Shown in pieces: positions 11,388 to 23,267 of a stretch of DNA of 64,000 nucleotides (the first letter of the stretch is position 1; every line of letters begins with the position of its first letter). Where the stretch lies: positions 1,550,001 to 1,614,000 of the forward strand of contig NZ_CP135052.1 in NCBI RefSeq assembly GCF_029193595.2, in the 5' to 3' direction. The DNA comes from Providencia hangzhouensis. Its GTDB lineage: Bacteria > Pseudomonadota > Gammaproteobacteria > Enterobacterales > Enterobacteriaceae. The notes beneath the pieces were generated by a model. The model saw only the letters and a program-made list of their open reading frames with translations, searched no databases and was not told the DNA's origin. The position numbers and the translations under genes were made by a program.

Positions 11388-11754
11388 TGTACAATGAGCC
11401 TCCATTTGGTGTCTTTTTAGTAGCCAGATATTGAATAGCCCTCTCAGCAGCCTTTAAGTTGATATGACCAATCATTAATAATTTGAAATATCTAGGTTTA
11501 CATCTACCCTTTAATTACTCATAATTAGTGTAACTAACATTGGTTTTTTTAGCTATATTATAGATTAGTTACGGTGAATAAAAAATTAGTAAGAGTAAAG
11601 CAGTTAACTTACGAACTTTAATCTATTGATTAAAGTTATATAATTAGCTAAATCAATTAGATAGTTATTTCAATTAAATTACTCTGCGATGGATAATGAC
11701 ATTCAGAGGTTATTAACCAAGTAAAAGTATGGCTAATGTGTTATAGTGATTTAA

Positions 11755-11857
11755 ATAATTATACCCCATTGCTATAAAAAGCAAACCTTGCATTCGCAAG
11801 CTTTTATCTAAAAAATAGATGTGGTATCTAAAGGAATCGTTTCCTAAGGAATTACCT
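11755..11857 (+). promoter_or_regulatory. Structured leader A of a micro membrane protein gene
   Basis: About 100 bases are nearly the same as 13115-13218. Three hairpins can form: CTTGC-ATTC-GCAAG (11787-11800), ATCTA-AAAAA-TAGAT (11806-11820), and GGAA-TCGT-TTCC (11833-11844). The TTCC of the third can instead pair with the ribosome-site AAGGAA (11846-11851) through a three-base loop, so the two pairings exclude each other. This suggests translational control of the gene at 11858. The mechanism is inference. Confidence 0.6.
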
Positions 11858-11962
11858 ATGAATTTATCTGCATTATATCATCGTTTTTTATCATTTACAG
11901 AAAATGTGTTAATTATAACGGTATTACTTCTGGCTACTTTTGCACTTGTATACTGGATGTAA
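11858..11962 (+). CDS. 34-residue single-helix membrane protein (leader A)
   Basis: ATG at 11858 stands six bases after AAGGAA. The product (MNLSALYHRFLSFTENVLII...) has a short basic N-terminus and one long membrane helix. It shares the pattern LYxRxLxFxxNxL with the product at 13616 and, more loosely, with that at 13219 and with the start of PsiE. Possible roles are a small membrane regulator or type I toxin; no known family is recognised. Reality is supported by conservation of leader and frame between copies. Confidence 0.6.
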   Translation: MNLSALYHRFLSFTENVLIITVLLLATFALVYWM

Positions 11963-12083
11963 AATTATTTGACAGTTAGCTAAAACTAAATGAGTAATGA
12001 GTTTTAACAACGCTGAGATTCGAGGACTAATTTATGGTGGAAAAATATTGGTATAGCACCTTTGAAAAATAAAGGAGAGATAA

Positions 12084-12290
12084 ATGAATTATTATATTCA
12101 GACTATAGTTGAACCACTGGGTGGTTATAAAATACATAAGGTTGGATGTAAGAATATGCCTATGGCTGCAAATAGATTTTACCTTGGTAATTTTTTTAAT
12201 GCTATGCAAGCGATTGAAGCTGCTAAAAAATCACGCTATAAGATTGTTAAGATATGCTCTGATTGTATAAAAAATAGAATGAAACACTAA
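12084..12290 (+). CDS. Small conserved hypothetical protein with Cys/His pattern
   Basis: The 68-residue product reads YKIHKVGCKNMP, then NRFYLGNFFNAMQAIEAAKK and ICSDC. This order (His and Cys, LG-F, a helix AxxAxKxA, then a C-terminal Cys pair) is seen in a family of short bacterial proteins of unknown function that may bind metal. A strong ribosome site (AAAGGAGAG) precedes the ATG. Function unknown. Confidence 0.6.
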   Translation: MNYYIQTIVEPLGGYKIHKVGCKNMPMAANRFYLGNFFNAMQAIEAAKKSRYKIVKICSDCIKNRMKH

Positions 12291-12468
12291 ATTATAAGCA
12301 ATAAAATTAAAAAAACTGTAGATTTTTTACATTTATTCCAGTAAGACAGGTGTTAACTCAGAGAAAAAGTCGTCATTTTCAAAGTAATTTCTTTTTTAAG
12401 ATTTGTATTGAAAAGGAATTCGTTAAATAATAATTTATCTTATAAGTGGAGTGAAAAATAAAACTTGC

Positions 12469-12674
12469 TATAATCGGGGGGGTGTGGCTTAATGCCCTTA
12501 CTGTTTTGGACGTACAAACCTATTTATGTTAGTCAGTTTCAAGTTGTTCACCATTTAGCGTTATCCCTGATATCACTTCATCGCGAATTCCTTCTAATTA
12601 ATTCCCATAAGTAAAAATTGAAAACAAACGCTATTATGCTTTATGGCAAATATTAAATAATTAAAGGAATTTCT
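12469..12674 (+). promoter_or_regulatory. Cold-shock promoter and long 5' leader of csp
   Basis: A TATAAT stands at 12469. GTGGCTTAATGCC at 12483 and TTTTGGACGTACAAACC at 12504 closely resemble the E. coli cspA promoter/leader (GTGGCTTAATGC and the cold box TGACGTACAGACC). The start would then lie near 12500 with a leader of roughly 170 bases, the length typical of cspA-type thermo-responsive mRNA. Confidence 0.75.
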
Positions 12675-12887
12675 ATGTCTAATATATTAACTGGTTCAGT
12701 AAAATGGTTTAACGATGATAAAGGCTTCGGTTTTATTACTCCAGCAGATGGTAGTAAAGATGTATTTGTCCATTTTTCTGCTATTCAGAGCGATGACTTT
12801 AAATCGTTAATTGAAGGCCAACAAGTCTCATTCACCATCGAGAATGGAATGAAAGGCCCTGCAGCTGGAAACGTGGTGGCACTATAA
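12675..12887 (+). CDS. CspA-family cold-shock protein
   Basis: The 70-residue protein has the RNA-binding motifs [12 protein letters not shown] and DVFVHFSAI, so it is a single OB-fold nucleic-acid chaperone. Length and ending ([10 protein letters not shown]) match E. coli CspA/CspE. The long leader with a cold box indicates cold induction. A YmcF-like zinc-ribbon frame begins almost at its stop codon, an arrangement also known downstream of cspG and cspI in E. coli. AAAGGAA is the ribosome site. Confidence 0.95.
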
Positions 12888-12889
12888 AA

Positions 12890-13024
12890 ATCTATTTGTA
12901 TTTTAAATGTCCTTGCTGTAGTGGATCCCAGTATAGAACTTCACAGTTTGATGTTTCGGTCAATAATCCACATGGTGCAAAATGTATCTTTTGTAAAAGT
13001 GTCATGAAAGCTCAAGTTAGCTGA
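12890..13024 (+). CDS. YmcF/YnfQ-like cold-shock zinc-ribbon microprotein
   Basis: No ATG exists in this frame before the conserved part. The frame runs from ATC at 12890 (alternatives: ATA at 12884 or TTG at 12896) to TGA at 13022. The product reads FKCPCCSGSQYRTSQFDV and GAKCIFCKS, with two CxxC pairs, closely resembling E. coli YmcF and YnfQ. Those are encoded after cspG and cspI and start at non-canonical ATT codons. The overlap or near-contact with the csp stop suggests translational coupling. Start codon is uncertain; the ribbon itself is convincing. Confidence 0.75.
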   Translation: MYLYFKCPCCSGSQYRTSQFDVSVNNPHGAKCIFCKSVMKAQVS

Positions 13025-13114
13025 TAAATAATTTGATTCATATTTAAATCTCTTTTTAATGAGGTTTTATCGCATTAATCGTATTTATTTAAGCTGACGT
13101 GGTATGCTTGTTTG

Positions 13115-13218
13115 ATAATTATACCCCATTGCTATGAACAGCAAATCTTGCCTCTGCAAGCTTTTATCTAAAAAATAGATGTGGTATCCAAGGGAATCAC
13201 TTTCCTAAGGAAACACGA
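13115..13218 (+). promoter_or_regulatory. Structured leader B of a micro membrane protein gene
   Basis: Second copy of the leader at 11755. The stem CTTGC/GCAAG is kept while its loop differs (CTCT here, ATTC in A), the ATCTA/TAGAT stem is identical, and the GGAA-TTTCC-AAGGAAA alternative pairing around the ribosome site is retained. Retention of stems with loop change supports a structured RNA. Confidence 0.6.
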
Positions 13219-13374
13219 ATGAAAAAGCAAACATTTTATAGTCGAGTTCTAAGTATCTATAAAAAAATTCTCATTGTGGCTGTACTAATTATCGTCGTTC
13301 TTGGTGTAATTTATTTGTTCGATAGTTCATCATGGAGCCAGCTCGGTGGTGGATACATTTTCCCTAAAAACTAA
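13219..13374 (+). CDS. 51-residue single-helix membrane protein (leader B)
   Basis: ATG follows AAGGAAACACGA. The product (MKKQTFYSRVLSIYKKILIV...) has one membrane helix at residues 16-34 and an extra 17-residue tail (SSSWSQLGGGYIFPKN) absent from the sister proteins. FYSRVL matches the YxRxL motif of the 11858 and 13616 products. Function unknown. Confidence 0.6.
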   Translation: MKKQTFYSRVLSIYKKILIVAVLIIVVLGVIYLFDSSSWSQLGGGYIFPKN

Positions 13375-13615
13375 CACTAATCAAATGTAATAGCTTTTCT
13401 AAAGTATTATGTTGTTGTGAATAAAGATCCTATTAACCAGTGTATGCTCTATGTCATGTTTTAAAGCGAGTAGTATTCTTAATTCAGTTCTTATAGTAAT
13501 TAATTGAAAAATTACAATTCTCTGAGTGTTAGCAATTTAAAGTATCTCATTACCATAACTCTTGCATTTACAAAATATTATCTGAAAGGTAAGTGAGATT
13601 TCTAAGGTATTATTT

Positions 13616-13735
13616 ATGAAATGGTCAAATCTTTATCAACGTATTTTGAATTTTTCACAAAACATGCTTGTTGTTCTTGTACTGATTATCATATTCATTC
13701 TAATTATTGCATATATTATAAATTTAGCTAAATAA
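13616..13735 (+). CDS. 39-residue single-helix membrane protein, third family member
   Basis: The product (MKWSNLYQRILNFSQNMLVV...) shares LYxRxLxFxxNxL with the 11858 product, then one long hydrophobic helix. Its leader (13555-13615) keeps CTTGCATT and TATCTGAAA and a CTAAGG before the start, but is more diverged. The gene lies 145 bases upstream of psiE, with a tRNA-like element between. Confidence 0.55.
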   Translation: MKWSNLYQRILNFSQNMLVVLVLIIIFILIIAYIINLAK

Positions 13736-13742
13736 ATTTATT

Positions 13743-13820
13743 CCACCATTAACTCAATTGGAAGAGTATTTAGTCCTGACAAAACTAAACGTCGAGGTTC
13801 GAGGCCTCGATGGTGGTCCA
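13743..13820 (+). tRNA. tRNA-like cloverleaf, probably degenerate
   Basis: A perfect 7-bp acceptor stem (CCACCAT/ATGGTGG) is followed by T and CCA. A D-arm ACTC-AATTGGAA-GAGT and a perfect T-arm CGAGG-TTCGAGG-CCTCG are present. The anticodon arm is abnormal: TTTAG/CTAAA encloses an 11-base loop (TCCTGACAAAA) with only three bases left for the variable loop. An alternative folding gives a 7-base loop CTGACAA (anticodon GAC, Val) with an imperfect stem. It may be a decayed tRNA, a phage tRNA or an att target; functional status is doubtful. Confidence 0.45.
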
Positions 13821-13880
13821 TTTAAATATTTAATGATGCTATATTCTTAATGAGAAAGGTTAAACTCCTGAGGAGTTACC

Positions 13881-14291
13881 ATGTCAGGACTAAGTCAATC
13901 AAAATTAATATGTAGAGTGTTGCAGTGGATTAGCAGTGCTGCGCTGATTTTACTTGCTATTATATTAATTTCTTTTTTAATAAAAGAAACTATTATTTTA
14001 TCGAAGCTACTATTTTCCGCTAGTGATTCCATTTCGATTTATTTGCTGGTCGATGAGCTTATTATATATTTTCTATATTTTGAATTTGTTGCTTTGATTA
14101 TCAAGTACTTTCAGTCAAATTACCATTTTCCATTACAATATTTTATTTATATTGCAATTACAGCAGTAATTCGGCTTATTATAGTTGAACATAATGAACC
14201 TCAGCTTTTTATTATTTACTCTGTTTCAATACTAATACTTATTATTGCCCTGTACATTGCTAATGCTGATAGACTTAAACCCAAAGAATAA
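13881..14291 (+). CDS. psiE: PsiE, phosphate-starvation-inducible membrane protein
   Basis: The 136 residues equal the E. coli PsiE length. The four-helix pattern is kept, with the conserved blocks FLIKET, VDELIIYFLYFEFVALIIKYFQS and HFPLQYFIYIAITAVIRLIIV. In E. coli psiE is induced by phosphate starvation and cAMP-CRP; its role is unknown. A strong ribosome site (CTGAGGAG) precedes the start. The first 40 residues (CRVLQWISSAALILL...) resemble the three micro-proteins encoded just upstream. No clear Pho box was identified. Confidence 0.92.
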   Translation: MSGLSQSKLICRVLQWISSAALILLAIILISFLIKETIILSKLLFSASDSISIYLLVDELIIYFLYFEFVALIIKYFQSNYHFPLQYFIYIAITAVIRLIIVEHNEPQLFIIYSVSILILIIALYIANADRLKPKE

Positions 14292-14592
14292 AAATTGTCA
14301 TAAGGTGGCTACTTTTATCTTGAAAAATATTTAACTGGTTGTATTTTATTTAGCACTATTTTAGTTAACAGCGTAAAAATTAAATTTCTTTTATAAATAT
14401 AATGCTGTAGCAAGAATAATTTTTTCGGTGTGGAAATATATAATTTTTTATAAATTATGTTCTATAAGGAATTTTTATTATTCTTTAGGTGGTATTTGTT
14501 ATCAAAGGCTAACTTCATAGTGATAATGCATTTAAAACAAACGAAATTAAATAATAATTGTCTAAGCTTCATACAATAAAGAGGGGTGAGTT

Positions 14593-15717: not shown

Positions 15718-15945
15718 ATGAAAATTATCATATCCCCTGATTATTTCAAGGAAAGCATGAGTGCAGAATGTACCGCAAATGCCATAACTAAAGGATTTAA
15801 AAGTGTATTCCCTGATGCCCAATACCTTTGTTTACCGATTGCTGATGGTGGTGAAGGAACTGTTGATGCATTGATTGCAGCCGCAGGTGGTGAGTATCGC
15901 AGTGTTATTGAACAATGTGAAGAGTATGGATACAAATTGAACTAA
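15718..15945 (+). pseudogene. Glycerate kinase N-terminal fragment (GarK/GlxK-like)
   Basis: Seventy-five residues match the N-terminus of glycerate 2-kinases: [17 protein letters not shown], then [22 protein letters not shown]. The family is about 380 residues; the match ends soon after residue 65 and the frame stops. The rest is not found downstream, so this is a truncated relic. The start is the natural one. Confidence 0.8.
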
Positions 15946-22588: not shown

Positions 22589-22714
22589 ATGATATTAAAA
22601 GAGCTATTTATCCGTATGCTTTATGTTTTTCAATACTTATTATTTGGTTTTCTTTTGTTATTATCATCAATAGCCTTACCTAATTGGTTAGGTAACGTCA
22701 CAAATTTTTTGTAG
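22589..22714 (+). CDS. 41-residue membrane protein of unknown function
   Basis: ATG at 22589 follows AAAGGGTATACTCT. The product (MILKELFIRMLYVFQYLLFG...) has one membrane helix with an LFIRMLxxFQxLL start that recalls the RxLxFxxNxL pattern of the 11858-13735 micro-proteins. The leader found there is not evident. It lies 37 bases upstream of blc in the same direction. Confidence 0.45.
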   Translation: MILKELFIRMLYVFQYLLFGFLLLLSSIALPNWLGNVTNFL

Positions 22715-22751: not shown

Positions 22752-23267
22752 ATGCGAGTGAAGTCAATTTTTATGTTTTTAAGTATGCTTCTACTTAACG
22801 GATGTAGCGTTAAAGTGCCAAAAGATATATCACCTGTTGAGAAGTTTGATTTATCACGTTACCTTGGCGAATGGCATGAAGTAGCGAGAATAGATAATCG
22901 ATTTGAAAAAGGATTAAGTAAAGTCTCTGCTAACTATTCTCTTCGTGATGACGGAGGTGTAAAAGTAGTGAATAGAGGATGGAATTCTGAAAGCAAAAAA
23001 TGGAAAGAGAGTATAGGGAAAGCTTACTTTGTTGAATCCTCGGATACTGGGGCTTTAAAGGTTTCATTCTTTAGGCCCTTTTACGGCGGCTATAATATTA
23101 TTAAGCTAGATGATAACTATCAATATTCATTAGTTGTTGGACCTAATAAAGATTATCTATGGGTGCTATCACGTACTCCAACTATGCCACCAGAGTTATT
23201 AAATGAATACCTTAGTTTTGCAAGTAACCATGGTTTTGATAGGCAAAGAATATTGATATTCCAATAG
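22752..23267 (+). CDS. blc: Outer-membrane bacterial lipocalin Blc
   Basis: This 171-residue lipoprotein has lipobox LNGC (Cys 18). The first lipocalin motif is clear (FDLSRYLGEWHEVARIDNRFEKG), as are YFVESSDTGALKVSFF and the C-terminal LWVLSRTP motif. Blc binds lysophospholipids and is induced in stationary phase through RpoS in E. coli. ACGGAGTT is a good ribosome site. It may be co-transcribed with the micro-protein gene before it. Confidence 0.95.
   Translation: MRVKSIFMFLSMLLLNGCSVKVPKDISPVEKFDLSRYLGEWHEVARIDNRFEKGLSKVSANYSLRDDGGVKVVNRGWNSESKKWKESIGKAYFVESSDTGALKVSFFRPFYGGYNIIKLDDNYQYSLVVGPNKDYLWVLSRTPTMPPELLNEYLSFASNHGFDRQRILIFQ

Follow-up and report, generated by a model that had tools for sequence, protein, structure and literature searches.

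What are three very small genes doing side by side with psiE in the chromosome of Providencia hangzhouensis? The stretch analyzed here (hereafter, the window) comprises 64,000 nt of the forward strand of contig NZ_CP135052.1 (assembly GCF_029193595.2, positions 1,550,001–1,614,000). The initial annotation described genes of 34, 51, and 39 codons for single-helix proteins, adjacent to psiE; all three open reading frames (ORFs) are indeed found, at 11858–11962, 13219–13374, and 13616–13735, and so is a PsiE-family gene (13881–14291; Pfam PF06146, E 6.6e-18). Absent from that description were a tRNA-like element (TLS) at 13743–13820, an apparently decayed element after the first ORF, and the prophage-remnant context. 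The cluster is best read as what remains of a lambdoid prophage carrying a family of moron-like cassettes, which come from the interval between the late antiterminator gene Q and the lysis genes. Comparison of the copies shows, at the level of sequence, that a typical cassette has an extended −10 element followed by a conserved leader of some 98 nt, an ORF for a single-span protein of 34–51 aa, and, usually, the TLS 7 nt past the stop codon.

Composition and distribution of the cassette

The cassette elements of the window are listed below; R1 and R2 are the models of the TLS and of the leader, respectively, the latter being a covariance model built from 18 leaders. L and G numbers are our handles for loci and genomes.

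11742..11747 (+), −10 element TATAGT, TG-extended, of cassette copy 1 (position checked)
11760..11857 (+), structured leader, copy 1: three hairpins closed by ATACC/GGTAT, Shine–Dalgarno sequence AAGGA (R2 110.4 bits, in the build set of the model)
11858..11962 (+), micro-ORF 1, 34 aa, single hydrophobic span (synonymous divergence, dS, 0.59 and nonsynonymous divergence, dN, 0.19 against the L019 homologue)
11970..12040 (+), apparently decayed tRNA-like element 3′ of micro-ORF 1, limits approximate (local alignment to the TLS consensus)
13120..13218 (+), structured leader, copy 2 (R2 109.3 bits, also in the build set)
13219..13374 (+), micro-ORF 2, 51 aa, hydrophobic span and C-terminal tail (dS 0.80, dN 0.25 against the L019 homologue)
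13535..13615 (+), diverged third leader, possible closing stem ATCTCATTACC / GGTAAGTGAGAT (unmatched by R2)
13616..13735 (+), micro-ORF 3, 39 aa, single hydrophobic span
13736..13742 (+), 7-nt spacer from stop codon to TLS
13743..13820 (+), TLS, 78 nt, CCA end, lengthened anticodon stem (ARAGORN; R1 96.9 bits, in the model)

Micro-ORF 1 is read from an internal ATG of a 47-codon ORF listed from 11819. The decayed element behind it has a local score of 20 out of 78 against the TLS consensus; loci lacking a TLS score 7–9. The intact TLS, detected by ARAGORN, lies between micro-ORF 3 and psiE.

BLAST of the region against 24 Providencia genomes shows that the leader, micro-ORF, and tRNA-like pieces recur together elsewhere. 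Among the best 150 candidates scored per genome, R1 finds 14 copies with at least 85.7 bits in 10 of the 24 genomes, and its other eight matches (at most 43.8 bits) are all tRNA-Lys according to ARAGORN; R2 at E 0.01 finds 18 leaders, in the same 10 genomes. The sequences used for building match their own model by construction; still, the coincidence of the 10 genomes for both models, with neither model matching in the other 14, is not explained by membership in the build sets. Neither leader nor TLS is matched in G202, a genome of the same species as the window, as expected of a prophage.

In 392 genomes of the family (best 10–12 candidates scored per genome), R2 at E 0.001 matches only four Providencia genomes and two genomes of one other genus, g93, while R1 yields matches of 54–70 bits in 19 other genera. 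The 26 of these non-Providencia loci that were viewed contain tRNAs or tRNA-like elements with no leader, a few of them close behind unrelated ORFs (L101, L105–L107). The fusion of ORF and TLS was also sought among at least 112 further loci of the TLS family (43 distinct): two of them have an ORF of at least 25 codons whose end is no more than 21 nt away from the element, namely L173, a Providencia-type cassette, and L226, with a 30-codon ORF in which no hydrophobic span is seen. One Providencia TLS used as a blastn query produced no match in E. coli genomes at E 0.1.

Several side observations concern these elements. Phage tRNAs and tRNA-like elements of the CCGCCAY type occur across Enterobacteriaceae (L092–L117, L159–L270), some of them, e.g., L168, with odd anticodon arms; a few stand 8–11 nt behind unrelated stop codons, of a csp gene in L101 and of a cysteine-rich ORF in L105–L107. 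The TLS is also seen on two Providencia plasmids, L048 and NZ_CP145926.1 (50167–50244); the gene order in L048 is csp, ymcF, leader, micro-ORF, and then TLS.

Micro-protein, leader, and tRNA-like element

All 20 leader copies (18 from the genus and two from g93) precede a micro-ORF, broken in L122 and beginning with GTG in L137 (35 codons), so the association of leader and protein proposed initially holds in the covariance-model search. The suggested selection on the protein is borne out as well. Of 58 ORF pairs of equal length, 21 were dropped by the script as saturated or having no synonymous change; the ratio of nonsynonymous to synonymous change (omega) is below 0.66 in all 37 usable pairs and at most 0.35 in 28 of them, the pairs not being independent. 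This supports purifying selection on the micro-ORFs at the protein level, as judged from substitution patterns. Conserved residues among the 24 distinct proteins include Y7, R9, N16, L23, and W33.

Searches of six micro-ORFs against Pfam, PHROGs, and NCBIfam (PADLOC not searched) gave a best E of 0.0038, for PHROG 1919, which has no function assigned; the micro-proteins would then be a prophage membrane protein family not recognized by these scans. The single-span similarities to a moron membrane protein (0.018) and a Sie-like protein (0.79) are weak and were given no weight. The likeness of the micro-proteins to the first helix of PsiE, also proposed initially, did not hold up: for five PsiE N-termini, a position matrix compared with hydropathy-preserving shuffles yields z of 0.57–1.82 and uncorrected p of 0.047–0.265.

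A looser relative was suspected at 22589. The window has there (22589–22714) a 41-aa micro membrane ORF, preceding an ORF at 22752 that resembles an outer-membrane lipocalin gene. It is conserved at 84–86% in five cassette-bearing loci (L143, L145, L148, L151, L158) and at 71% in L066, so a micro-ORF conserved in prophage loci does exist; its similarity to the cassette family, however, is weak (E 0.60 to L150), and neither the leader model nor the TLS model matches this locus.

The duplication of structured leaders is confirmed for copies 1 and 2, which are 90% identical across 84 nt (leader 2 as a genome query retrieves leader 1 at E 7.8e-31) and fold better than 200 of 200 (z −3.5) and 189 of 200 (z −1.9) shuffles, respectively. 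It does not extend to the third leader, barely related to them (nhmmer E 0.087), having no R2 match at E 0.01, and folding no better than shuffles (z −0.11). Across the aligned leaders, 94–100% of cells are paired in the three hairpins and in the closing helix ATACC/GGTAT. GGTATCC may also pair, in a shifted register, with GGANNNACC across the Shine–Dalgarno sequence: its seven positions pair in 17, 18, 18, 10, 16, 18, and 17 of the 18 leaders, i.e., six of seven pairs are possible in at least 16 leaders. The leader can hence form, as far as base complementarity indicates, two mutually exclusive helices, one of them hiding the Shine–Dalgarno sequence, covariation being weak; it is a candidate new cis-regulatory RNA. 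When 5 of the 20 full messages are folded computationally, the Shine–Dalgarno sequence is paired (in L143, partly), and the TLS pairs internally, with at most 0.06 per base with the remainder. A loop–loop pairing between leader and TLS, inspected by eye only, was dropped.

At a constant place upstream, 18 of 24 distinct leaders have an extended −10 element (TGnTAYART), compared with a mean of 0.7 and a maximum of 4 in 1000 shuffles, the leaders being related to each other; a T-run further upstream is seen in 21 of 24 (counted with no control). Terminator-like sequences are found upstream of the L138 cassette and, as read by eye, downstream of a few cassettes. The Rfam scan of the window gives the cspA thermoregulator as the sole match at the gathering level and no riboswitch family; at E up to 5 (Infernal, 11600–14400), there is one extra chance-level match, to a snoRNA, and no tRNA match. 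The isrK RNA of Gifsy-1, which we take to be an Rfam family, has no cmscan match either in the window or in 11600–14400.

The 14 TLS sequences (13 distinct) align gap-free across 78 nt. A structure written by hand is paired in 97% of cells, compared with 33–49% when the partners are slid by 1–3 columns; changes on both sides occur in 6 of 23 pairs, a count reached by 2 of 500 shuffles, and the covariation score is reached by none, although these shuffles do not control for relatedness. The acceptor, elbow, and T-arm are kept: the elbow nucleotides (G18G19, TTCRA) are invariant in the 14 aligned rows except for one TTCCA, and CCA stands at positions 76–78 in 18 of 20 cassettes, L150 having TCA and L128 an insertion. 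The body is nearly invariant, while the anticodon loop varies. Instead of the 5-bp stem of a tRNA, the anticodon stem has 6–7 bp (of 13 distinct rows, 11 form the sixth pair and 7 the seventh), and in place of a constant anticodon ARAGORN reads gac, att, ttt, agc, aac, and agt among the 14 sequences. Since the anticodon stem is lengthened and the anticodon is not constant, the TLS is probably not a decoding tRNA.

In 20 of 21 sequence-distinct cassettes, exactly 7 nt separate the stop codon from the TLS, and 12 different sequences are used as spacer. These 20 have the stop codon TAA (17) or TGA (3); their ORFs have 34, 35, or 39 codons, one being read as 41 codons when started at a TTG further upstream. 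Many of the 21 cassettes are closely related, hence, the 20 do not count as independent. A spacer of 7 nt was also read by eye in two more viral copies, with an intact (L275) and a decayed (L278) TLS. Directly behind the 20 leader–ORF copies, there is an intact or almost intact TLS in 10 cases, a decayed or truncated one in four, and none in six; L126 is counted as decayed solely because of its analogy with L125, as it scores 10, close to background. Of the six, L131 and L134 have a TLS behind a second ORF, and copy 2 of the window has it behind ORF 3.

Prophage setting and possible roles

The neighbors of the cassettes in the window are listed below; csp, ymcF, psiE (PHROG 21122), and the 68-aa ORF (PHROG 4298) all recur next to cassettes.

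12084..12290 (+), 68-aa phage ORF, PHROG 4298, recurrent cassette neighbor (PHROGs)
12500..12928 (+), cspA thermoregulator RNA of the csp gene (Rfam RF01766, 185.8 bits)
12675..12887 (+), cold-shock protein gene (Pfam CSD, E 2e-31; PHROG 729)
12896..13024 (+), YmcF-like gene (Pfam PF23641, E 1.3e-19)
13881..14291 (+), psiE-like gene of prophage type, a neighbor and not a required part (Pfam PF06146; PHROG 21122)

A lambdoid prophage has left fragments in the window: near 9.2 kb a holin-like stretch, then the cassette region itself, and near 18.7 kb a spanin-like stretch with a stop in the printed frame. Fifteen loci on viral contigs were considered (14 found by the TLS pattern and L173 by a wider one; L275 and L278 are outside the flank counts). 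A Q-like gene lies upstream in nine and a lysis gene downstream in 11; both are present in seven, one of the two in six, and neither in two, both shorter than 1.3 kb. The L138 cassette follows CII-like, replication O-like, RusA-like, HNH, and Q-like genes and precedes the holin and endolysin genes, while L146 has holin, endolysin, Rz, and terminase genes downstream. The cassette lies, as a moron does, between core genes of a temperate phage.

Some peculiarities of these regions may be mentioned here. In L147 and L173, a holin-like fragment (80–90% identity, two pieces) is found about 350–500 nt upstream of the TLS, with lysis genes also downstream. In the Providencia prophage L146, psiE itself is a gene of the phage, located between the TLS and the lysis genes; its family, PHROG 21122, has no assigned function. 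Further along the window, at 15718–15945, there is a short ORF of 75 codons, perhaps truncated, resembling the start of glycerate kinase.

From these features we infer promoter use, a switch, RNase P cutting, competition with the ribosome, and a membrane function, in a scheme to which we give an even chance: the cassette would be a prophage moron for a small inner-membrane protein, with a switch at the 5′ end and an RNase P cut at the 3′ end. In the lysogen, it would be transcribed from its own promoter. The leader would act as a translational switch: in the open state GGTATCC would pair with the 5′ ATACC, and in the closed state with GGANNNACC, which hides the Shine–Dalgarno sequence. RNase P would remove the TLS from the message, the new 3′ end lying 7 nt behind the stop codon. 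As a terminating ribosome occupies about 10 nt beyond that codon, it would reach across the 7-nt spacer and touch the acceptor stem, and translation and cutting should therefore compete; a message that is cut and unprotected should be short-lived. Upon induction, polymerase modified by Q would read through the cassette, and the RNase P cut would then split the RNA into a cassette message and a lysis message. The likeliest site of action of the protein is the inner membrane of the lysogen, where it may serve superinfection exclusion or bring some other benefit. As the ORF persists where the TLS does not, and ORF and TLS persist with a diverged leader, selection probably acts on the protein, with the RNA elements as its controls. 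More tentatively, the phage might have turned a tRNA gene into a 3′ control element, the competition of ribosome and RNase P setting the lifetime of the message, in addition to a 5′ translational switch of a new class.

A number of observations weigh against this scheme. On the side of the leader, covariation is weak, with changes on both sides in 1 of 25 pairs and a score reached by 36 of 500 shuffles; the two helices on the Shine–Dalgarno side, in the register drawn first, are paired in just 50% and 87% of cells, and the register was then shifted; the L138 leader has lost the part covering the Shine–Dalgarno sequence; and a scan for consensus −35/−10 promoters lists none for the cassette in the two loci scanned, L138 and the window. 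On the side of the TLS, further pair types are no better than in shuffles (364 of 500 reach the count), and 7 of 13 sequences form the innermost anticodon pair. Some copies retain the ORF while their TLS has decayed or is missing. In the exceptional cassette (L141/L157, also L132), the Shine–Dalgarno rule of the script finds no ORF, and the ORF read apart from that rule ends 14 nt before the TLS; the 7-nt spacer could be inherited without selection. The benefit to the lysogen, finally, is suggested by position only.

Four other roles were weighed against the moron scheme. In type I toxin–antitoxin systems of the hok or BsrG kind, the toxin message is silenced by a folded leader and an antisense or 3′ element. 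The micro-protein could likewise be a membrane-active peptide silenced by the leader together with an antisense RNA or a 3′ element, the TLS being this 3′ control; we consider it unlikely, though several features agree with it: the size, the single span, several diverging copies, the broken copy in L122, pairing of the Shine–Dalgarno sequence, and the prophage location. A small hydrophobic peptide encoded by a structured mRNA, characteristic of such toxins, is found here, and inside the L138 ORF there is a minus-strand promoter match of 10 of 12 positions with TG. Promoter matches in the two scanned loci are, however, at or below shuffle level (4 vs. 3.6; 11 vs. 18.8), including in the window a minus-strand match of 9 of 12 at 13604–13577; the TLS folds internally and not onto the leader in the five messages folded; and in Pfam, PHROGs, and NCBIfam the best family match is the one to PHROG 1919.

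It is rather improbable that the tRNA-like RNA is itself the functional product, a decoy for an anticodon nuclease or a regulatory RNA, and the micro-ORF a translated leader whose terminating ribosome controls the release. The nearly invariant TLS body with a varying anticodon loop, the spacer placing the ribosome at the acceptor stem, and related phage tRNAs in the corresponding interval of Gifsy-1 would all agree with this; yet the ORF is under purifying selection at the protein level and survives where the TLS has decayed or is absent.

A lysis-timing, antiholin-like protein, suggested by the cassette preceding the holin gene (the holin ORF of L138 starts 218 nt after the TLS start), is distinctly unlikely, as the cassette has its own −10 element and, in L138, a terminator-like site upstream, further genes intervene in other loci, and the holins of L138 and L146 belong to different PHROGs while the micro-ORF family is retained. 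Least probable is the proposal of the initial annotation that the micro-proteins are small regulators of PsiE-like proteins: a psiE-like gene does start 137–142 nt after the TLS start in several loci, but it is near 6 of 15 Providencia TLS/leader loci, with none in the others at E 0.001, i.e., many cassettes have no adjacent psiE, and the N-terminal resemblance is not significant.

Comparison with known systems

The literature search (open-licence PubMed Central) produced no such cassette and no bacterial mRNA whose end is a conserved, apparently non-decoding tRNA mimic set at a constant distance behind the stop codon. Excerpts of the papers retrieved deal with SieA (PMC10883804), non-canonical tRNAs (PMC7609411), and Pas small RNAs, which occur in lambdoid prophages (PMC13192938). 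The isrK-orf45-anrP region of Gifsy-1 lies just downstream of the antiterminator gene, and a structured RNA precedes its 45-codon ORF; in the excerpt of PMC4825925, translation there is controlled by the RNA fold, which is what we propose for the cassette.

The Gifsy-1 record also contains a tRNA-Arg situated, like the TLS, between Q and the holin gene. Both start with CCGCCATTAGCTCA and end with TTCGA..CC.CGATGGCGGACCA, and over the TLS the identity is 74% with Gifsy-1 and 76% with a single unverified Escherichia phage record; a similar tRNA-Arg is found upstream of holins in an E. coli prophage, with no Q annotated in the stretch viewed. The tRNA-Arg of Gifsy-1, however, follows an antirepressor-like gene. 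In contrast to the lambdoid phage tRNA-Arg, the TLS has a lengthened anticodon stem, no constant anticodon, and a position 7 nt behind a stop codon.

Hok, TisB, and BsrG are prophage type I toxins. As in the cassette, a tiny single-span peptide is combined there with a folded mRNA; the cassette differs in having a tRNA-like 3′ element and no identified antisense gene. Phage morons, of which HK97 gp15 is reportedly an example, are likewise apparently autonomous units between the genes of a temperate phage; compared with them, the message of the cassette adds a conserved switch-like leader and a tRNA-like 3′ element. If RNase P does cut at the TLS, geometry alone would couple the termination of translation to RNA processing, and a folded leader combined with a tail resembling a tRNA could be a new way of message control.

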